From the IMG/VR virus record IMGVR_UViG_3300043294_000079, positions 1 to 54,399 of that record: DNA of 54,399 nt; one strand, written 5' to 3'. The DNA comes from a virus. The notes under the pieces are model-generated. The model was not told the origin of the DNA. It ran no database searches and saw only the letters and a program-made list of their open reading frames with translations. Below, one piece after another: positions 21,485-43,477 of the stretch. Positions within the stretch are counted from its first letter, which is position 1; every line of letters begins with the position of its first letter. The translations under genes and the position numbers were made by a program.

Positions 21485-21579
21485 GAATAGACCCCGCAAC
21501 GACGGCACGGTCGCCCGTAGCGGCAGGTAGAACCCTTCCGGCGGCGATGCCCGATAATGCGGCAAAGCAGGCGTCTCAC
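21481..21579 (-). CDS. 32-residue CRRCG microprotein after portal
   Basis: From GTG 21579, overlapping the portal stop (GTGA). Reads RRLLCRIIGHRRR then CRYGRPCRRCGVYS. Short proteins of the form LLCRIxGH...CxRCG are common in phages and resemble a minimal zinc ribbon. Coupled to its neighbours on both sides. Confidence 0.6.
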   Translation of the reverse strand: MRRLLCRIIGHRRRKGSTCRYGRPCRRCGVYS

Positions 21580-23357
21580 GAGCGCACCCTCACGCGCCTG
21601 CGCTGCTCGTAGACGGCGCGCCAGTTGGACTTGCGGGCGATGTACTCGGCCAGGTGCTCGCCGGGCAGACGCGCCTCTGGATCGTCCTCTGCTTCGGGCG
21701 GTGGCTCGGGCGGCGGTTGTAGGACTTGGGGCTGGGTCGGCAGTTGCTGCGGTGTCGGGTCGAGCGATGTCCCCTTGCCTTTGGCTGCGACCGAGGCCTT
21801 CGACAGGGCGCTCAGGTCGGCCCACAGCGTGATGTTCTGGCGCTCGATCAGGACCGGGTCATCGCCCCCCTCGATGGGTGGCTCGCTGATGTCGTCGCGG
21901 TAGCGGTTCGCGGTCCAGCTCCCGTTGCGGAGCCGCATGTCGCGGATCTCCTCGATGACCAGGTCGTCGCGCCAGTCCACCTCGCTGAAGCTGATGCGCC
22001 AGTCCTTGACGCCGTAGGCCTGGTAACACAGGGCGAACGTGAACTTCTCCAAGACAAGTTCGCTGGTCGGGCCGCAGGTGGTGACACGAAAAGTCTTGTC
22101 CTGTCCACTCTCGGCCCCTTGCCCGCCCAGGGACCCCGGCTCCATGACGCCGGCCTTGCGGGGCGGCACGCCGTAGGTGGACAGGATGTCGTTGCGGGCA
22201 CCGTCGAGCACGGCCATCCAGTAGTCGAGCTTGTTCTGTGACAGCTCGGTGACGCTGGTCTTGATGCCGCTCGAAGCGCCGCCCTCGGTCGTGAACAGAT
22301 TGCCGATGTTCCTGGTCCCGAGGTTGCGGGCCGCGTACTGGCTGAGCTTCTTCTCGATCTCCGGCGGCGGCGTGGCGAAGGGGAAGTCGACGTGCAGCCG
22401 TGGCGGGTCGCCACGCTTCATGGTCTCTTTGATGAGGCCCGCAGCGAAGAGCCAGGTCTTGATCGGGACGCTGGCCTTCGTCGTGGGCGAGACGCCATAG
22501 AGCGAGGCACCGGGAGAGTCGAGCTTCACGTGGATGACCTCGTGCGGCTCGAAGTTCACCCGCTTGCCGGTGTCGGTCATCTGCACGAAGGCGACGAGCT
22601 TGCCGTCGACTTCCTTGCCGATGTTGCCGTGCTCATCGGCGATGACCGACATGGACTGGCAGTCGAGTGGCCAGAGAGCGACCGGCTCGTTGCCGATCCA
22701 GGTCACCTCCACGAACGCATCGCCGAAGATCAGAGCATCGGTGACCGCCCGGCGCATGAGCTGGCGGATGTCGTCGGTCGGGTTGCAGTAGTCGAGCAGC
22801 TCCTGGATGCGGGCGATCCCCGGCGGGGGGGCGGGCTTGGCCCTGACCTGCTCGGGATCGAGGTTGAGGGGTTCGAGCGTGAGACCCCCGGCGGTGATGG
22901 TGCGGGCGATGCCGTCCACGCACACCGCCACCCATGGGCAGGTGAGGTACGCCTGCAGGAGCTCGGTCATCGCCGTCTGGCGATCAGGTGCACCGGGGGT
23001 GGACGACATGCCGGAGTTGGTCGGCGTCGTGCCACCGATGGGCAGGCCGTTCACGTAGCCGAGACGCGCTACCTGGCGTTTCGGGGGCTGTGGGAGTGCC
23101 GGTGCGGCTTCAAGGGCGTGTGACTGGCCACGGCGCCACGGCAGGACCGAGCGCGACGGGGCTGTGGCTTCGACGAAGGGCGAAGGGGCCGTGCGGCCGC
23201 CGTTGGCTGGCGGCATGAGCGGACCGGCCTCGGAGACCGGCATCTCCATCATGGACAGCTCGCGCTCGATGGTGGCCAGCGCCAGCTCGGCGTGCGCGTG
23301 CTCCAGGCGGCCGAAAATAGGATCAGGCGCACTCTTCTGCCGGTTCCAGAAAGCCAA
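21576..23357 (-). CDS. Portal protein
   Basis: 593 residues. An N-terminal disordered region (to about 120, with PSPFVEA near residue 58) precedes the portal core: VCVDGIARTI, AVTDALIFGDAFVEV, LYGVSPTTKASVPI, FTTEGG and LSTYGVPPRKAGVM. These fit the SPP1/HK97-type portal fold with wing, stem and clip. The C-terminus is Pro/Glu-rich and ends RRRVRVRS. It forms the dodecameric DNA gate at the head vertex, and precedes MuF through a chain of tiny genes. Confidence 0.9.
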   Translation of the reverse strand: MAFWNRQKSAPDPIFGRLEHAHAELALATIERELSMMEMPVSEAGPLMPPANGGRTAPSPFVEATAPSRSVLPWRRGQSHALEAAPALPQPPKRQVARLGYVNGLPIGGTTPTNSGMSSTPGAPDRQTAMTELLQAYLTCPWVAVCVDGIARTITAGGLTLEPLNLDPEQVRAKPAPPPGIARIQELLDYCNPTDDIRQLMRRAVTDALIFGDAFVEVTWIGNEPVALWPLDCQSMSVIADEHGNIGKEVDGKLVAFVQMTDTGKRVNFEPHEVIHVKLDSPGASLYGVSPTTKASVPIKTWLFAAGLIKETMKRGDPPRLHVDFPFATPPPEIEKKLSQYAARNLGTRNIGNLFTTEGGASSGIKTSVTELSQNKLDYWMAVLDGARNDILSTYGVPPRKAGVMEPGSLGGQGAESGQDKTFRVTTCGPTSELVLEKFTFALCYQAYGVKDWRISFSEVDWRDDLVIEEIRDMRLRNGSWTANRYRDDISEPPIEGGDDPVLIERQNITLWADLSALSKASVAAKGKGTSLDPTPQQLPTQPQVLQPPPEPPPEAEDDPEARLPGEHLAEYIARKSNWRAVYEQRRRVRVRS

Positions 23358-29016: not shown

Positions 29017-29774
29017 GACGCACCTCTCAGTAGTTCCAGCAACCGATCTGACTGCCACTCGCGTTCCTTCTTATGCGCGGCGGCAGAGGCGGCGGAGGCG
29101 GCGTTGGCGTCGGCGCAGCCGGCGGCGTAGTAGGCGGCGGCGTAGTAGGCGGCGGCGGCGTCGGCGGCGCAGCCGGCGGCGTCGGCGGCGTAGTAGGCGG
29201 CGGCGGCGTCGGCGGCGTAGTAGGCGGCGGAGGCGGCGTAGTAGGCGGCGGAGGCGGCGTAGTAGGCGGCGTTGGCGTCGGCGCAGCCGGCGGCGAAGGC
29301 GGCGGCGTAGGCGGCGGCGGCGTCGTAGGCGGCGGAGGCGGCGTAGTAGGCGGCGTAGCGATTTGCCTCAGTCGGGTTCTTCGCCCATCTCAACGCTGCA
29401 TCAATCGCCTCGCGCGGCCGCTTGTCACCGGGGTAGCGATCCTCGTAGTGTCTGAGCACTCGTTTGGCACACTCCGCTGCCCACTGGACGGCGATGATCT
29501 GTGTCAACGTCCCGACCTGGCTCACGAGCCGCGCAGAACTGAACGCCACCTTGTCATCGGCAGCGACGGACGCGCCGCGACCCTCGGCGATCCACAGCAC
29601 GGCACCGTTGCGAGCGTGCTCTGCGATGCCCTGGTGTGTGGCAAGGTGCCAGCCGGATACACACATCACTGGTCTCGTGTCAGCAGTCCACGCGCCCACC
29701 CTGACAGGCCATTTCACCCTCTGGTAGGTGGTAGTGCGATCCGGGTTGAGCCATTTGTAACAGGTCTCTCTCAT
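29013..29774 (-). CDS. DUF7666-like domain plus Ala/Tyr repeat protein
   Basis: 253 residues. The N-terminal 90 residues (PVMCVSGWHLATHQGIAEHA, AVLWIAEGRG) resemble DUF7666, a domain common in actinophages. Then REAIDAALRWAKNPTEANRY leads into about 85 residues of Ala/Tyr repeats (YYAASAAYYAAS and relatives), and the end KEREWQSDRLLELLRG recurs in related proteins. The same helical repeat style is seen in Imm5-type putative immunity proteins. Membrane or protein binding by the Ala/Tyr helices is a guess. Confidence 0.7.
   Translation of the reverse strand: MRETCYKWLNPDRTTTYQRVKWPVRVGAWTADTRPVMCVSGWHLATHQGIAEHARNGAVLWIAEGRGASVAADDKVAFSSARLVSQVGTLTQIIAVQWAAECAKRVLRHYEDRYPGDKRPREAIDAALRWAKNPTEANRYAAYYAASAAYDAAAAYAAAFAAGCADANAAYYAASAAYYAASAAYYAADAAAAYYAADAAGCAADAAAAYYAAAYYAAGCADANAASAASAAAHKKEREWQSDRLLELLRGAS
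29075..29360 (-). repeat. Microrepeat tract of GCGGCG and GTAGTAGGCGGC units
   Basis: This coding stretch consists of almost pure repeats of GCGGC, GTAGTA and GCGTCGGC, encoding Ala-Ala-Tyr-Tyr periods. Such tracts vary in length by slippage and give long meaningless open frames on the other strand. Confidence 0.85.
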
Positions 29775-30658
29775 GCTTTCCCTTCCTGTGTGTCGAACGC
29801 GGCCACGATCGGGTAACCGTTCGCGTCGTAGATGGGAGGCGCCGCAGTCTTCATTTCGCCCACACGTTCCTTGATCGCGGCGACGGCCGCCCTACCTTCT
29901 TGTGTCGGCTCGCCTCCCATCTCAGGCATCGGTGTCTCTGGGATGCGAGCACCATCGGAGCGGGGCGGCACGGGGCCATTCACGGACGGGGCGCGTGCCT
30001 TGACGGGGTCGTAGGCGCGCATCCATCCTTGCCACCCTTTGACGTTCGGCTGCGTCCCGTGCTCGGCGCAGTAGGCCACGAAGGCGGCTGTCTCGGCTTC
30101 GATATCAACGTCGGCGAGGTTCGGCCGCTTGGCCGTCTGTGCGCGCAGTTCGCCGGGGACTACGAATCCAGGTGAGGCAGGCGCGGGTTCCTTCCTACCT
30201 CCTAGATCCAAGTTCCTAGATCCTAGATCCCGCGCGCGCACGCGAGGACTAACACCCTCCGGGAGACTTACGGGAGGATTACCGGAAGCCTCAGGGAGAT
30301 CATCTAGGAAACTTCCCTGAATATTCCGGGGTGGCTCCGGGAATCTCGACGCCGATGGATGATTGATTTTCTGATGCTCCCAGTGCTTGACCTGGATGTA
30401 TGTCTCACCATCGACCTGGTAGCGGATGATGCGACCTGCCTTCGCCAGTTCGGCGATGACGCGTTGCATGCGTGCCGGGGTCATCCATTTGTCGTTCGGC
30501 CAGAGTGCTCCGGCCAATTGTTTTGGCAAGTCGCGCGCCCTTCCAGTGTCATCGGCCTCTGTCCAGAGACCGATGTAGGTCAAACGCGCCTCCAGTGAGA
30601 GGGCCGTAACATGAACGTCACTAAAAAAATCGGGTTTGATACTCCGTATTCTCGACAA
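29771..30658 (-). CDS. Replication initiator-like winged-helix protein
   Basis: 295 residues from TTG 30658 (one base after the methyltransferase stop). The N-terminus SRIRSIKPDFFSDVHVTALS, then ARLTYIGLWTEADDTGR, belongs to a large phage replication-protein group (replisome organiser/DnaD-like winged helix). A Pro-rich linker (about 110-165) joins a C-terminal domain with AYCAEHGTQPNVKGWQGWM. The linker DNA holds short repeats and may be the origin. Probably loads host helicase. Confidence 0.75.
   Translation of the reverse strand: MSRIRSIKPDFFSDVHVTALSLEARLTYIGLWTEADDTGRARDLPKQLAGALWPNDKWMTPARMQRVIAELAKAGRIIRYQVDGETYIQVKHWEHQKINHPSASRFPEPPRNIQGSFLDDLPEASGNPPVSLPEGVSPRVRARDLGSRNLDLGGRKEPAPASPGFVVPGELRAQTAKRPNLADVDIEAETAAFVAYCAEHGTQPNVKGWQGWMRAYDPVKARAPSVNGPVPPRSDGARIPETPMPEMGGEPTQEGRAAVAAIKERVGEMKTAAPPIYDANGYPIVAAFDTQEGKA
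30201..30345. other. Candidate replication origin inside the initiator gene
   Basis: CCTAGATCC occurs at 30201, 30215 and 30222. It is followed by an alternating CGCGCGCGCACGCG tract, then spaced GGGAG boxes (CCGGGAGACTTACGGGAGG) and an A/T-richer stretch with AATATT. All lie in the region encoding the initiator's linker, the same arrangement as iterons inside lambda O. No experimental mark can be seen. Confidence 0.4.
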
Positions 30659-31340: not shown

Positions 31341-31564
31341 AAGACAACCCGCAAATGCGTAGCCCGAGCCTTGTGCCCGGCGACAACCCGAATCGGGTGC
31401 TGCTCACGCCGGCGCTCGAGCTCGTCATCCCGGTACGCGCAGGCCAGCACCTCGAGCAGCTCGTGGATCAGCTCTTCCTGGCGAGCCGTGAGCTGGCCCC
31501 CGTCAACGTCGGGTGTCAGGGCCTCCGCGGCCAGGGCGTCGACGCGGTCGGTGTAGGTGGTCAT
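31337..31564 (-). CDS. Small helical protein between methyltransferases
   Basis: 75 residues from ATG 31564, with ATGA overlaps on both sides. Reads TARQEELIHELLEVLACAYR then DDELERRREQHP, an amphipathic helical protein. Possibly a partner of one of the flanking methyltransferases; no family recognised. Confidence 0.65.
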   Translation of the reverse strand: MTTYTDRVDALAAEALTPDVDGGQLTARQEELIHELLEVLACAYRDDELERRREQHPIRVVAGHKARATHLRVVL

Positions 31565-32586
31565 CTCAGTCGCCCCCACAGGATCCTGAGTGCAGTTTCG
31601 GCCTGCTGAGGGACGACCCCGTTGCCGAGCAGCCGCAGTTGATCGTCCCGAGAGGCGTAGGAAGTGCCCAGCCAATCGGCAGCCCCATCAGCCACTCGAC
31701 AAAGCGAGGGTTCAAGACCCGGCTCGCATTCGAGGATGGCGTTCCACCAGTCGCGTTCGTCTGGTCCTGGTGGGAACGTAGGAACTCGGGAAGCGACATG
31801 CCCCCGGTCCGACCGGGGACATCCTGGCCCTTGCCGTCCCGCGAAGTCGCCGTCGGCCACTGTCGCGCCGCCGCGTCCGTCAGCGTCACGCCCGCGTGAT
31901 GCGAGTCCGTCGGCTCGTAGGTAGCCCCGCTCGCTCGGGAGTCCTGAGCCGTCGCGCTCGGCCACATCTTCGCCACCACCGTTAGGGATGTCGGCTCCGT
32001 CCGCGGACCGCCCTTCATGCGGGCCTTCATCGCCAAGTGCGCCTCGGGCGACTTCTGATCGTCGTGAGCTACGGGCGTCGGCCAGGATGAAGACTCGTTC
32101 CCGTTGCTGGGAGGCACCGACCTCTCCCGCAGATAGCACCGCCCACTCCGCATCGAACCCGAGGTCGGCCAAGTCAGCGAGGACGAGTCCCAATCCTCCC
32201 CTAGAAATGAGGGCGCGGACGTTCTCCAGGAACACGAGGCGGGGTCGAACTCCGCGAAGAAGTGAGGCGATGGCCGGCCAGATCCACCGTTCATCATCGG
32301 TGCCCCTTCGCTTTCCCGCTGCGGACCAGGGCTGGCATGGGAATCCTGCGGTGACGAGATCCACTCCGAAAAATGGCGCGGGGTCCAGGTCTTCGAGGTT
32401 GCCGCACCAAACAGGAGCAGGCTCCAGGGACGCGTCCTCCATCCTTGCCAGGAGGACGGACGCCGCGTAGGCGTCCCGCTCGACGTAACCCACCACTCGG
32501 CTGTCGGGGAACACGGTGGAGACAGCCAACTCGAGTCCTCCGTAGCCGCTGCAAAGGCTGAGGACGGTTGGGAAGGGAGTAACCAC
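31561..32586 (-). CDS. C5-cytosine DNA methyltransferase
   Basis: 341 residues from GTG 32586; a GTG at 32607 is also possible but overlaps the previous stop. Motif I LSLCSGYGGLELA (9-21), motif IV GFPCQPWSA with catalytic C84, motif VI VFLENVRAL (118-126), motif VIII QRERVFILA (161-169), and motif X LGNGVVPQQAET near the end. The target-recognition part contains EPSLCRVADGAADWL, the usual phage-type EPxxxRVADG motif. From motif VI on, the same DNA reads as another recognisable family one base over. Confidence 0.88.
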   Translation of the reverse strand: MVTPFPTVLSLCSGYGGLELAVSTVFPDSRVVGYVERDAYAASVLLARMEDASLEPAPVWCGNLEDLDPAPFFGVDLVTAGFPCQPWSAAGKRRGTDDERWIWPAIASLLRGVRPRLVFLENVRALISRGGLGLVLADLADLGFDAEWAVLSAGEVGASQQRERVFILADARSSRRSEVARGALGDEGPHEGRSADGADIPNGGGEDVAERDGSGLPSERGYLRADGLASRGRDADGRGGATVADGDFAGRQGPGCPRSDRGHVASRVPTFPPGPDERDWWNAILECEPGLEPSLCRVADGAADWLGTSYASRDDQLRLLGNGVVPQQAETALRILWGRLR

Positions 32587-32588
32587 AC
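31566..32588 (-). CDS. Overlapping frame matching the WPTP / LNPxFVEWLMG family
   Basis: The +1 frame relative to the C5-methyltransferase is open for 340 codons from GTG 32588, directly after the upstream TAG. Its first 105 residues look like a shadow. From FDPASCSWRTSAPS onward it reads like a known phage methylase-associated family: SLTWPTSGSMRSG, SSWPTPVAHDDQ, GVTLTDAAARQWPTATSRD and LNPRFVEWLMGLPIGW. Whether it is translated here is unknown. The codon choice is poorer than in the main frame. Confidence 0.3.
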   Translation of the reverse strand: MWLLPSQPSSAFAAATEDSSWLSPPCSPTAEWWVTSSGTPTRRPSSWQGWRTRPWSLLLFGAATSKTWTPRHFSEWISSPQDSHASPGPQRESEGAPMMNGGSGRPSPHFFAEFDPASCSWRTSAPSFLGEDWDSSSLTWPTSGSMRSGRCYLRERSVPPSNGNESSSWPTPVAHDDQKSPEAHLAMKARMKGGPRTEPTSLTVVAKMWPSATAQDSRASGATYEPTDSHHAGVTLTDAAARQWPTATSRDGKGQDVPGRTGGMSLPEFLRSHQDQTNATGGTPSSNASRVLNPRFVEWLMGLPIGWALPTPLGTINCGCSATGSSLSRPKLHSGSCGGD

Positions 32589-32855
32589 CTAGTTGCCCGC
32601 TTTCCACGCCGCGTAGCCAGCCACCCTCGCTTCAAGAACGGCGTCGGAGTTGAAAGTCCGTATTCGGTGACAGTTCGCGCAGACCACGTCGCACTTAGCA
32701 ATCTCAGCCTGAACCGTGACCAGGCTGAAGTAACGCATCTGACTGAGGTGGTAACGCTTTTGTGACGGGTCGCGATGGCGCGTCAGGGTGTACTCAGGCT
32801 CGGCGCCATTCGCCTCGGCGTTGCCTTCGAGCGTCTGCGTCATTGTGAGAGTCAC
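32589..32855 (-). CDS. HNH-family small protein, possibly truncated
   Basis: 88 residues; ATG overlaps the Dam-like stop (ATGA). It contains HRDPSQKRYHLSQMRYF and EIAKCDVVCANCHRIRTF, the C-terminal half of a common phage HNH nuclease motif. The usual N-terminal CxxC zinc pair and DH dyad are absent, so it may be inactive, minimal, or dependent on a partner. Confidence 0.7.
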   Translation of the reverse strand: MTLTMTQTLEGNAEANGAEPEYTLTRHRDPSQKRYHLSQMRYFSLVTVQAEIAKCDVVCANCHRIRTFNSDAVLEARVAGYAAWKAGN

Positions 32856-34021
32856 GACGCCTCGTCAAATAGCGACGCCTGCGTGACCAGGCAATGCGGC
32901 GAGCACCACAACACCTCGCAGTGGCGGTTGTCCTTGTTGCCGCCCGTGCTCGTGCTCGTCTGATAGGCGGCCGATGCCGACCAGCGGATGCGGCGCCAAG
33001 ACTTCGGGATCGCATCGTCGTGCTCGGTGGAGTAGCCAGCCAGCACGATCCGATAGCGCGGGTTGTCGCCATTAGCTACCGCCCAGTCCCGGCAAGCGAT
33101 AGCGACGTCGACCGTCTCGCTCGCGTACAGACCCGCGGTTCGCACGTCCTCCGCATAGGGTGGATCGAGGAACACACCGACCGACGCTCCGAAGCTCAGC
33201 GCGCCCTTCGTGACAACCCGTGACCAGTCGCCCGTGCAGACCCTGACATCGCGCAGCCGTTCGGCAAGCTCGCGCATATAGGCCGCGATGCCTTCGGTGC
33301 GGTAGCTCAGGTTGTTATAACCAGCCCGGCCCGCGTCGCCGAGGTGAGGGAGCTGGCGGTTGACGCCCTGGCCCGCGTCGCCGAGGTGAGGGAGCTGGCG
33401 GTTGACGCCCTGGCCCGCGTCGCCGAGGTGAGGGAGCTTGCGGTTGACGCCCTGGCCCGCGTCGCCGAGGTGAGGGCGCTTGCGGTTGACGCCCTGGCCC
33501 GCGTCGCCGAGGTGAGGGAGCTGGCTCTCATCATCCGTCGCCGAGGTGAGGGAGCTTGCGGTTGACGCCCTGGCCCGCGTCGCTTCGTAGTCCCACGGGC
33601 CGGTTCCTGAGCACCAGCCGCCACCGATCCAGGCATTGACGCCCCAGACCCACCAGCCCGCGATCTTGGCGTCGTAGAACATCGGGTCACACTCAAGTCC
33701 CGCCGCCAAAGTCTCGCGGCCCTCATTCACGAGCCATAAGTGACGGGCGAACAAGTCGTCCTCGTTCACCGGCCAGTCTGCGAACGCCGCCACAGTCTCA
33801 GGATCGGAGGCTAGTGCTCGCCAGAAGTTCGCCAAGTAGTGATCCGCGTCATTTACCGTCTCGGCGCGTCGCGTGCCATCTGCGAGGTTGTGAGGCCGTT
33901 CTAGAAGAACAGCGAGAGAGCCAGCGAACGGTTCAACGTAGTTGTCCACGTCACCGAGCGCCGCCCATACGTTGGGAGCAACCCTGCGCTTGCCACCGAA
34001 CCAGACGAAGGGGGCCTTCAT
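32852..34021 (-). CDS. Dam-like adenine methyltransferase with tandem-repeat insert
   Basis: 389 residues. Motif WFGGKRRVAP at 7-16 (FGGK of the Dam family), VEPFAGSLAVLLER at 29-42, and catalytic DPPY at 286-289. Between them, residues about 148-232 are repeats LPHLGDAGQGVNR(K/Q), in the target-recognition/linker region. It methylates adenine in DNA. The repeat number can change by slippage and could alter specificity or phase the gene. Confidence 0.85.
   Translation of the reverse strand: MKAPFVWFGGKRRVAPNVWAALGDVDNYVEPFAGSLAVLLERPHNLADGTRRAETVNDADHYLANFWRALASDPETVAAFADWPVNEDDLFARHLWLVNEGRETLAAGLECDPMFYDAKIAGWWVWGVNAWIGGGWCSGTGPWDYEATRARASTASSLTSATDDESQLPHLGDAGQGVNRKRPHLGDAGQGVNRKLPHLGDAGQGVNRQLPHLGDAGQGVNRQLPHLGDAGRAGYNNLSYRTEGIAAYMRELAERLRDVRVCTGDWSRVVTKGALSFGASVGVFLDPPYAEDVRTAGLYASETVDVAIACRDWAVANGDNPRYRIVLAGYSTEHDDAIPKSWRRIRWSASAAYQTSTSTGGNKDNRHCEVLWCSPHCLVTQASLFDEAS
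33331..33585 (-). repeat. 42-bp tandem repeats inside the Dam-like gene
   Basis: Near-identical 42-base units begin at about 33337, 33379, 33421, 33463 and 33505 (box CGCCGAGGTGAGGG), plus a further copy at 33538 after a 33-base step. The shared box GCGGTTGACGCCCTGG lies at 33356, 33398, 33440, 33482 and 33558. The last interval (76) is not a multiple of 42; it shifts the coding phase, so that the first repeat in the protein reads ATRARASTASSLTSAT and the others LPHLGDAGQGVNR. Confidence 0.9.
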
Positions 34022-40916: not shown

Positions 40917-42037
40917 TGCGCCGATGCCTTTGCCTTCAGCCCCTCAGCCACGAGGTCAAGGTCAAACAGCGACAAGTCGGACATCGACGCGATATCAGCC
41001 CCGAGAATCCGTGAGGCCTCACCGCGGATAGCGTCGTGGTCAAGTCCGAGCGGCTTCGCAATGGCGTGGACCTTCCGCATCTTGGCTGCCAGCGCGTCGG
41101 CCTCGGCCGTGGTGGACGACGCGGGAGGTACTGCGCCCGCGTCGTCCGTGTCCCCTGGGTGAGGTTCGTCGGCCTGGTCAGCCTCCTTTCCGTTTGCACC
41201 GCTGCGAACTTGTGCGGCCGTCCGAGCCTTGCGCCCCGTGGCCGGTAGTGGCTGGGCTGCGTTCGCCCTCGGGCGTGCCTGCGTTGGTTTGGCGGCTTCC
41301 TCCATCTGCTCACGAAGCGAGGCTGGCGGTAGGGCCGCGACGGGTGTGACGTAGGTGGCTGATGCCGGCGGGAGTGCGGCGGTCGCCGCGCCACGGCCAA
41401 GCGCCTGTAGGTTGATCTTGAAGTCGAGCACGGGAACCGTGAAGTTCCTGGTCGGCTCGCCTGGTCGCTTCACCTCGCGGTGGTCGATGCGGAGCGTCGC
41501 AGGAAGGATGGCCTGACCTGTGGCCTCAGCGATGCGCTCCATGAGTTCGAAGCTCCCGCTCAGTTCGGACGCGGCATAGAACCCATGGGACTCAAGGCGG
41601 AACTGGCCCGTGCCCGGTACGTCATCGAGCAGGACGGACAGGCGCGTCGTCGGCTTGCACTCGCGCGCCTCGGGATCGCACACGCACAGTTCCTCACTCG
41701 GGACCTGGCACTCGCCGTCGCAGCGTCGGATGCAGCCGCCGCCTGACCATGCTTCGAAAAACTGGCTGAACGCCATCGCGGCGGGCAGCACGTGGCAGGC
41801 GATCTCAGACGAGTCGGTGTAGACCTCCCATTGCTTGCCGGTCGGAGCGTCGGCCCACGGTTGAGGCTTGCCGCCGTAGAGGCCAGCGATGGCCTTGATC
41901 GCGCCTTCATTCTGGCTGGTGAAGCGAAAAGCATCGAGCTTGCCGGGTCGGGACTTGCCCGCGCCCATCGCGACCTTCTCACCGAGGCGGATACGACCGC
42001 TCTCGTGAAGGCGACGTTGCAGGGTCAGAATGGTCAT
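40913..42037 (-). CDS. phiC31 gp3-like recombination directionality factor family protein
   Basis: 374 residues from ATG 42037. MTILTLQRRLHESGRIRLGE, KSRPGKLDAFRFTSQN, WSGGGCIRRCDGECQ with a cysteine cluster (CVCDPEARECKPTTRL) and GTGQFRLESHGFYAASEL are typical of the large actinophage family that includes the phiC31 directionality factor gp3. The last 130 residues are Pro/Ala-rich and helical. In phiC31-type phages it turns a serine integrase toward excision; here the only integrase seen is a tyrosine recombinase. Confidence 0.75.
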   Translation of the reverse strand: MTILTLQRRLHESGRIRLGEKVAMGAGKSRPGKLDAFRFTSQNEGAIKAIAGLYGGKPQPWADAPTGKQWEVYTDSSEIACHVLPAAMAFSQFFEAWSGGGCIRRCDGECQVPSEELCVCDPEARECKPTTRLSVLLDDVPGTGQFRLESHGFYAASELSGSFELMERIAEATGQAILPATLRIDHREVKRPGEPTRNFTVPVLDFKINLQALGRGAATAALPPASATYVTPVAALPPASLREQMEEAAKPTQARPRANAAQPLPATGRKARTAAQVRSGANGKEADQADEPHPGDTDDAGAVPPASSTTAEADALAAKMRKVHAIAKPLGLDHDAIRGEASRILGADIASMSDLSLFDLDLVAEGLKAKASAQ

Positions 42038-42933
42038 GCTTGCCCTCTTTCCATCGGTGCTCCGATGACGTGCTTGGAACCCTCGGTCATCCAACGGGCG
42101 ATCTCTATGGCGAACTGGAAGTACTCGAACACCGGCTCATCGCAGACGATCGGGTGAAGTGCCGCGTGCTCGGGCGTCAGGTGGAGAACCACCCCACCGT
42201 CGAGCGGTGGCATTGGCGAGGCAATGCCGCGCTCGGCATCATTGAGCAGGTAGTAACGGCGGCGGAACTGCTCGTATCGGCGCGCCCGCCACGTCGCAAT
42301 CAGATCCGCATAGCGATAGGCGGCTAGCTGCAATGCGACCTCGGGATAAGGCCCGCTCTGCTTGCCCTGGCTGTCGATGCTCTTGCGGCTGGACTTGTAA
42401 TCGAGCAGGAGCGTCATGCCGTCGAGTTCGACAATGGCGTCGAGCGTCCCGGCGTAGCCCCACGTGGGTGAGTAGACCGCCGCCTCTGCCGCGAGGTACT
42501 TCGGCTGCCACTTCTGCGCCCACGCGTCGAACTGCTCAAGGAAGGGGCGAACTTCGTCATCGACCTCGGGACGCTCACCGGTCAGCGCATAGCTCGCGCA
42601 CGGGTCGTGCACGGCCGTCCCTAGCTCGGTCGCACTGCGTATCCCCTTCGGCTTCTTGAACCGGGCGTCGCGCAGATCCTTGACGACTGCCTCGCGCCCC
42701 TCGGCTTCTATGCGGTCGGCGAGGTATCCCGCCTGGTCGCACGCTGCCTCGGCTGCCATTTCGGCCGACCAGTAAAGCAATGCCGGCTTGCCCAACTGGC
42801 CGATAATCGTCGTGACGGACCAGAAGCGTTCGTCCTCCGCACCAGGCTTAGGGACGTCGACCTCGCCGAGGCGGATGTGGGCGTAGGACTGGCCGGCGGG
42901 GGCGATGACTTCGAAAGGGAGTGTGATGGTCAT
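42034..42933 (-). CDS. RecB/Cas4-like PD-(D/E)XK nuclease
   Basis: 299 residues from ATG 42933. Nuclease core: GTAVHDPCASYALTG, AAVYSPTWGYAGTLDAIVE (first Asp), LLLDYKSSRKSID (D-x-K) and PEVALQLAAYRYADL (Q-x-x-x-Y motif IV). This is the RecB/Cas4-type exonuclease set used in phage recombination and replication. It is coupled to the directionality factor gene by ATGA. Confidence 0.85.
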   Translation of the reverse strand: MTITLPFEVIAPAGQSYAHIRLGEVDVPKPGAEDERFWSVTTIIGQLGKPALLYWSAEMAAEAACDQAGYLADRIEAEGREAVVKDLRDARFKKPKGIRSATELGTAVHDPCASYALTGERPEVDDEVRPFLEQFDAWAQKWQPKYLAAEAAVYSPTWGYAGTLDAIVELDGMTLLLDYKSSRKSIDSQGKQSGPYPEVALQLAAYRYADLIATWRARRYEQFRRRYYLLNDAERGIASPMPPLDGGVVLHLTPEHAALHPIVCDEPVFEYFQFAIEIARWMTEGSKHVIGAPMERGQA

Positions 42934-43178
42934 TCCGGCACCGCCACGAGCGCGCCGTCCTCGTCCACGATGCTCGCCCAGCACTCGGGGCAGTAAGTCG
43001 CGAGCGTGTACGGGTCGAAGATGACCCAACCTTCGGGCGCGAGGTCGTTGGTGACGACGGGATACCGCGTCCGGCAAAACAGCGAGTTGGTGAACAGGCG
43101 GACGTACTCGGCCCTGATCGGCTTCGTGTCGGCCTCGGCCTCGCAGCCGCCGCATTTCAGATGGACGACGACGCTCAC
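42930..43178 (-). CDS. Small zinc-binding early protein
   Basis: 82 residues from GTG 43178. HLKCGGCEAEADTKPIRAE, a middle beta part and YCPECWASIVDED: two CxxC pairs. Coupled to the nuclease gene, so a partner role is possible. Confidence 0.65.
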   Translation of the reverse strand: MSVVVHLKCGGCEAEADTKPIRAEYVRLFTNSLFCRTRYPVVTNDLAPEGWVIFDPYTLATYCPECWASIVDEDGALVAVPE

Positions 43179-43477
43179 AGCGCCATCGCCAAGTCACTCG
43201 GCAACCACCCGATTGGCAGTTTGCACATCCTCTCGAACATCACCTGGAAGCACCAGATGGTTTCGAGCAGCGGGCGCTCGGCGTCAGAGACGCGCCCCAC
43301 CTCGTGGTCCTTGTTCCAGTCGGCCGCACGTTGCCAGGCCTTGGCAAACCGCGCCTCATCGAGGGTGGCGAGCGAACGGGGAAGAGTCTGGCCGCGGTGC
43401 TCGCACTCCTCGCACCCGTCGTGCCAGATCTGACGGGCGTCGAAGCCTGGGAGGGCGTCGTGGTAAGCGTGCATCAT
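43175..43477 (-). CDS. Early protein with CEEC motif
   Basis: 100 residues. YHDALPGFDARQIWHDGCEE then CEHRGQTLP, helical ARFAKAWQRAADWN and ERPLLETIWCFQVMFERMC. The Cys/His set could bind zinc. It resembles small proteins of actinophage replication clusters. Coupled both sides. Confidence 0.65.
   Translation of the reverse strand: MMHAYHDALPGFDARQIWHDGCEECEHRGQTLPRSLATLDEARFAKAWQRAADWNKDHEVGRVSDAERPLLETIWCFQVMFERMCKLPIGWLPSDLAMAL

Follow-up and report, generated by a model that had tools for sequence, protein, structure and literature searches.

Does this stretch of viral DNA encode two unrelated protein families in two frames, or two parts of a single enzyme? In the window (the whole 54,399-nucleotide stretch analysed here), ORF reading placed both open frames of an overlapping pair on the minus strand. 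Frame 0 (P0001, here alpha) is open at 31561-32607 and encodes 348 amino acids; judged from the sequence, its real start is probably the GTG at 32586, leaving 341 amino acids. The +1 frame (P0002, beta) is open for 340 codons at 31566-32588, as the initial annotation had stated. Its proposal of two recognisable families that share DNA at a fixed +1 offset was borne out, both frames match profiles, and the exact positional match it described was recovered: EPSLCRVADGAADWL in frame 0 and LNPRFVEWLMGLPIGW in the +1 frame are the same bases, offset by one letter. The locus comprises the following parts.

31561..32586, minus strand: alpha ORF (frame 0) from its putative start, with motifs I-VIII, an open linker, WPPGP/EP..RVADG and motif X.
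31566..32588, minus strand: beta ORF (+1 frame), 340 amino acids, with an N-terminal extension, the WPTP recognition region and motif IX.
32584..32588, minus strand: GTGTG double start (beta 32588-32586, alpha 32586-32584), with a TAG immediately before it.
32589..32855, minus strand: upstream 88-amino-acid ORF, whose TAG stop (32591-32589) adjoins the double start.
32071..32568, minus strand: alpha motifs I-VIII, with PCQ at 32337-32329; the constrained frame is 0.
32151..32174, minus strand: beta TWPTSGSM, overlapping alpha LADLGFDAEW; the beta Met requires the alpha Asp codon to be GAT.
31716..32084, minus strand: beta WPTP recognition region; the constrained frame is +1, and frame 0 is held open.
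31714..31776, minus strand: alpha FPPGPDERDWWNAILECEPGL element, directly before motif IX; frame 0 is constrained again here in relatives.
31668..31715, minus strand: beta motif IX, LNPRFVEWLMGLPIGW, read in alpha as EPSLCRVADGAADWL.
31609..31638, minus strand: alpha motif X, LRLLGNGVVP.

Profile matches divide one enzyme between the two frames. Only residues 14-179 of P0001 matched the Pfam family DNA_methylase (PF00145; 4e-30), and this catalytic half has motifs I-VIII, including PCQ and ENV. The initial annotation had taken the main frame for a complete C5-methyltransferase; however, at the expected position of motif IX frame 0 reads EPSLCRVADGAADWL, and the canonical motif IX is located in the +1 frame, so that alpha is not complete. 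The succession of motif IX and motif X in one chain, typical of PF00145, is accordingly broken up (X in frame 0, IX in +1), and a complete C5-methyltransferase motif set is reached only by combining both frames. P0002, which contains WPTP repeats and LNPRFVEWLMGLPIGW (LNPRFVEWLMG being motif IX), matched PHROG 1008 'DNA methyltransferase' at 73-307 (8.8e-31), as well as PHROG 27243 and 26627, both of unknown function. The last positions of phrog_1008 matched motif X of P0001 and not P0002, which identifies this family as the C-terminal half of a methyltransferase whose middle and end lie in different frames of the window. P0001 itself matched phrog_363 'DNA methyltransferase', and other beta proteins matched phrog_1008; the library lists the two frames as two families, and its output is silent on the shared DNA.

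We collected relatives from two viral-contig scans and one bacterial-genome scan, together with phage and plasmid records, and found four layouts. Class B, the layout of the window (> 130 relatives, among them phage record ctjLE16 and Microbacterium phage MoxS-R1), has motifs I-VIII and X in frame 0 and WPTP and motif IX in +1. In the split class A (mycobacteriophages Peaches and Dylan; L062, L076, L082), WPTP, IX and X are all in +1. Class 0, mostly from actinobacteria and their phages, has all parts in a single frame. The fourth layout is that of L134, in which alpha is followed by a non-overlapping beta within one ORF (tandem); its WPTPVARDDGKTPEAHMAMKDRMG closely resembles WPTPVAHDDQKSPEAHLAMKARMKG of the window. 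A viral scan queried with the L134 beta matched nothing except L134 itself, and tblastn of the L113 beta against phages gave no match. Independent, non-overlapping members of the second family thus exist (L134 and the fused relatives). One fused case, L011, shares the window's own branch of the tree (support 100/91) and reads motifs I-VIII, WPTP, IX, WPPGP and X in one frame; the WPPGP-type element of the window (FPPGPDERDWWNAILECEPGL) stands after motif IX there. Four loci (L035, L093, L094, L156) carry one frame-joining indel each; we regarded them as damaged or mis-assembled class B and excluded them from interpretation.

The fused relatives bear directly on the nature of the WPTP/LNP part, which had been described as a second family. 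They carry it in frame with motifs I-VIII and X, and LNPxFVExLMGxPxGW corresponds to their in-frame motif IX; WPTP/LNP therefore appears to be that enzyme's own C-terminal half, comprising the recognition region and motif IX. When the fused forms were searched by sequence against the PDB and with Pfam, matches covered the catalytic half alone. An AlphaFold model of the fused relative L232 has a C5-methyltransferase fold matching M.HhaI, with confident motif IX and X helices and a WPTP region of low confidence; beta modelled alone reached a pTM of 0.22, a poor model that weighs neither for nor against a two-subunit enzyme.

To what extent both frames are kept open was assessed against shuffled sequences. 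For the +1 frame, synonymous codons were shuffled within each gene, and stops were counted between motif IX and a point 150 codons ahead of motif VIII. The 133 class-B loci contained 73 stops in +1 against 451 expected, and 105 of them were stop-free from motif I to motif IX against 10.3 expected, so that stops in this frame fall well short of the neutral rate; class B is defined by its +1 pattern, and loci found by the alpha protein alone, free of selection on +1, serve as a check (24/28 stop-free against 5.5 expected). The same shuffle revealed no such preservation in the +2 frame of class-B loci or in the +1 frame of class 0. The window taken alone is mildly unusual (no +1 stop against 2.5 expected, P = 0.02). 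For the reverse case, +1-synonymous shuffling was applied over the recognition region of 104 loci chosen by +1 protein similarity: frame 0 had 16 stops against 310 expected and was stop-free across the region in 99 loci against 11 expected. Class A provides a natural control, since X belongs to the beta frame there and leaves frame 0 nothing to reach; its frame-0 stops occurred at the neutral rate (18 seen and 16.6 expected in L062; 10 and 7.3 in L076). Selection keeps both frames open in class B. In five class-B loci (L090, L209, L219, L223, L224), frame-0 stops between motifs VIII and X cut a still conserved motif X off from alpha; it may form a separate third part or be read after a frameshift out of beta, or the gene may be decaying.

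Which frame is constrained changes along the gene. We counted codon-position changes in 26 independent pairs sharing no sequence and expressed them as percentages at frame-0 positions 1/2/3. Motifs I-VIII (25/15/60%) are constrained in frame 0, the recognition region (58/22/20%) in +1, the WPPGP segment of 20 codons before motif IX (30/24/46%) in frame 0, motif IX (67/18/16%) in +1, and the motif X tail that follows it (22/10/68%) in frame 0. The conservation of each frame across homologues, which the initial annotation had proposed to compare, thus favours neither throughout: constraint alternates 0, +1, 0, +1, 0. The same rotation was seen between the window and its close relative L006, with 31/15/26 changes in the recognition region against 19/13/32 in the catalytic part. 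Proteins translated from the recognition region agree, being more alike in +1, with 255 pairs at E < 1e-10, than in frame 0, with 62 (55 versus 26 in alpha-selected loci). Within motif IX, amino acid replacements in the frame-0 RVADG (A to V, D to H or N) nearly always leave LMG intact in +1. Upstream, the beta N-terminal sequences SWRTS and TWPTSGSM overlie a region where frame 0 is constrained, and are mostly shadows of methyltransferase motifs; the Asp codon of DAEW is GAT in 29/30 cases versus 41% overall (P = 1e-10).

In the window the TAG of the upstream 88-amino-acid ORF is followed at once by GTGTGG, in which beta starts at 32588 and alpha at 32586. Start codons of alpha and +1 lay ≤ 6 nt apart in 102 of the 133 class-B loci, compared with 24/133 for the +2 frame and 6/26 for the fused class 0 (P < 1e-6); about a quarter of class-B loci are without a paired start. 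The offsets were -2 (ATGTGG, GTGTGG), -5 (such as ATGGCTTGGCT and ATGACATGGCT) and +4 (GTGAATG). AUGUG and GUGUG initiate in both frames in E. coli (Kohl et al., 2022; PMC9841429), a paper whose text does not mention methyltransferases. The window has the same kind of ambiguous start, namely GTGTG with two start codons overlapping by one base and both frames open, and many relatives have ATGTG at the start of both frames. By this analogy we infer that both start codons are used for initiation in the window; translational coupling of the double start to the upstream stop is possible. Internal starts were considered as well. Internal +1 starts with a Shine-Dalgarno sequence were not in excess (31 versus 31.9 expected), although the window (at 32297) and L006 have an ATG in common that follows AAGGGG. 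No one internal +1 start in the vicinity of PCQ was found to be conserved. GTG is over-represented 11 codons before PCQ (50 versus 10.9); as the beta start it was rejected, the open +1 frame being better explained by a shared start at the beginning of the gene.

We consider it very likely that the two members of this fully overlapping gene pair each encode a subunit of a single cytosine-C5 DNA methyltransferase, heterodimeric like M.EcoHK31I. Ribosomes would initiate at GTGTG in either frame. Alpha would supply catalytic motifs I-VIII and motif X, the linker between them mostly needing only to stay open, and beta would supply the WPTP target-recognition region and motif IX, preceded by an N-terminal extension that again mostly needs only openness. 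By analogy with the published M.EcoHK31I, alpha and beta would associate into a working enzyme; translation of both frames and dimer formation are thus predictions from the sequence.

The same parts could instead be joined in a single polypeptide by programmed frameshifting, entering +1 once motif VIII has been read and returning to frame 0 ahead of motif X. This would yield the canonical motif order, and the split actinophage genes (Peaches gp77/76, Dylan gp7/6) do place ORF2 in +1 immediately after motif VIII. We regard such frameshifting as unlikely, since it needs neither an open +1 frame before motif VIII nor an open frame 0 across the recognition region, although selection strongly maintains the two; moreover, the alternation 0/+1/0/+1/0 would demand four shifts, and the paired starts would be left unaccounted for. 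Another reading has both frames translated but beta acting as a separate protein, a regulator or counter-defence factor. Although the poor AlphaFold model of beta alone and the indirect case for subunit association speak in its favour, it is quite unlikely: motif IX is on beta and absent from alpha, the beta parts share a chain with the alpha parts in L011, L134 and the actinobacterial class, and M.EcoHK31I offers a precedent.

Could the +1 frame be a mere accident of GC-rich codon use and a conserved protein, with the methyltransferase frame alone coding? Long +1 openings are frequent in such DNA and the effect in the window by itself is modest, but at the family level this is refuted by the synonymous-shuffle nulls, the rotation of codon positions and the greater +1 protein similarity, and non-overlapping and fused in-frame homologues exist; we hold it to be extremely improbable. 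The initial annotation had favoured overprinting, with WPTP born from methyltransferase genes and the window a dual-readable intermediate. Part of this stands, because the beta N-terminal part (SWRTS, TWPTSGSM) overlies conserved methyltransferase sequence in which frame 0 is constrained. From motif VIII to IX, however, the +1 frame is under protein-level selection, which makes the methyltransferase frame the overprinted one there, and in the fused relatives WPTP-LNP is the enzyme's own C-terminal half. A transitional state also fits poorly with an overlap that is apparently old and stable, is found on either side of the tree and across many phyla, and has fused forms nested inside it. Overprinting as the origin of the WPTP family is, in our view, very unlikely.

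The history of the overlapping arrangement was followed in a tree built on the catalytic part, with a midpoint root only. Class B occurred on both sides of this tree, and the actinobacterial fused and split forms were nested within one part of it, which suggests that the overlap is probably old and has been undone at least twice. Hosts and contigs include Pseudomonadota, Myxococcota, Chloroflexi, Acidobacteriota, Bacteroidota, Bacillota and Hydrogenedentota, and beta-like frames were present in 16/369 sampled gammaproteobacterial genomes. It is likely that we are dealing with an old, widespread class of phage and bacterial methyltransferases, built as a fully overlapping pair with a single start region, starts 2-5 nt apart, two interlocking subunits and four constraint switches, of which annotation shows just one of the two frames, sometimes alpha and sometimes beta. 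In L163 (2300-4150), a fused class-0 gene retains a relic in +1 (SETWPSSGM..LPTPRARDWKRGGKDG), which breaks off a little further on, as though the fusion had come from an overlapping ancestor.

M.EcoHK31I is a two-polypeptide C5-methyltransferase (YGGCCR). Lee, Kam and Shaw (1995) are reported to have found its beta polypeptide encoded within the alpha gene in a different frame, both polypeptides being needed. In C5-methyltransferases generally, the large catalytic domain includes motif X, and the small domain is made up of the recognition domain together with motif IX; M.EcoHK31I has motifs I-VIII and X in alpha and IX in beta, and M.AquI has motif X in its smaller subunit (PMC3404938). By motif layout the window shows the same division as M.EcoHK31I. 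In contrast, the published prediction puts the recognition domain of M.EcoHK31I in alpha, whereas selection in the window puts the recognition region in beta; beta of the window type begins within 2-5 nt of the alpha start and shares almost the entire gene with it; and the window family is one of phages and prophages, with WPTP repeats. M.AquI, whose two polypeptides jointly give motifs I-X, resembles the split actinophage relatives of class A; the window differs from it in having motif X in alpha, so that IX and X are not together in the smaller subunit, and in its whole-gene overlap. Separately, a different C5-methyltransferase of canonical type, L264 in gammaproteobacterial genome G123, has motif IX (VRRMLPSEYEILQGFPEGWTE) only in +1, whereas frame 0 holds its recognition region together with motif X, an arrangement identical to the one published for M.EcoHK31I. 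A literature search, with most subscription journals out of reach, found no paper on the window's layout in phages.

Long same-strand overlapping genes with strong evolutionary backing are rare in bacteria and tailed phages; this family has > 130 members and comes with matched nulls, with natural controls and with homologues in which the overlap has been undone. If the two-subunit reading is correct, the annotated frame expressed alone should give no active enzyme, and the locus would be a natural example of a subunit ratio set by ambiguous start codons. It would also explain why one or the other frame is called 'methyltransferase' or 'hypothetical' in public records. The beta frame is annotated, as methyltransferase or hypothetical protein, and alpha is omitted in Acidovorax phage Alfacinha1 (gp46, L275), Synechococcus phage Ssp-JY39 (L276) and Roseicitreum plasmid pRA03 (L273).

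Close to the overlapping pair, on its upstream side, the window has a second methyltransferase-like ORF (32852-34021, minus strand; phrog_56, 3e-21). Elsewhere in the window, matches on the minus strand to a portal protein (21576-23357), a replication initiation protein (29771-30658) and an exonuclease (42034-43197) confirm a tailed-phage context.
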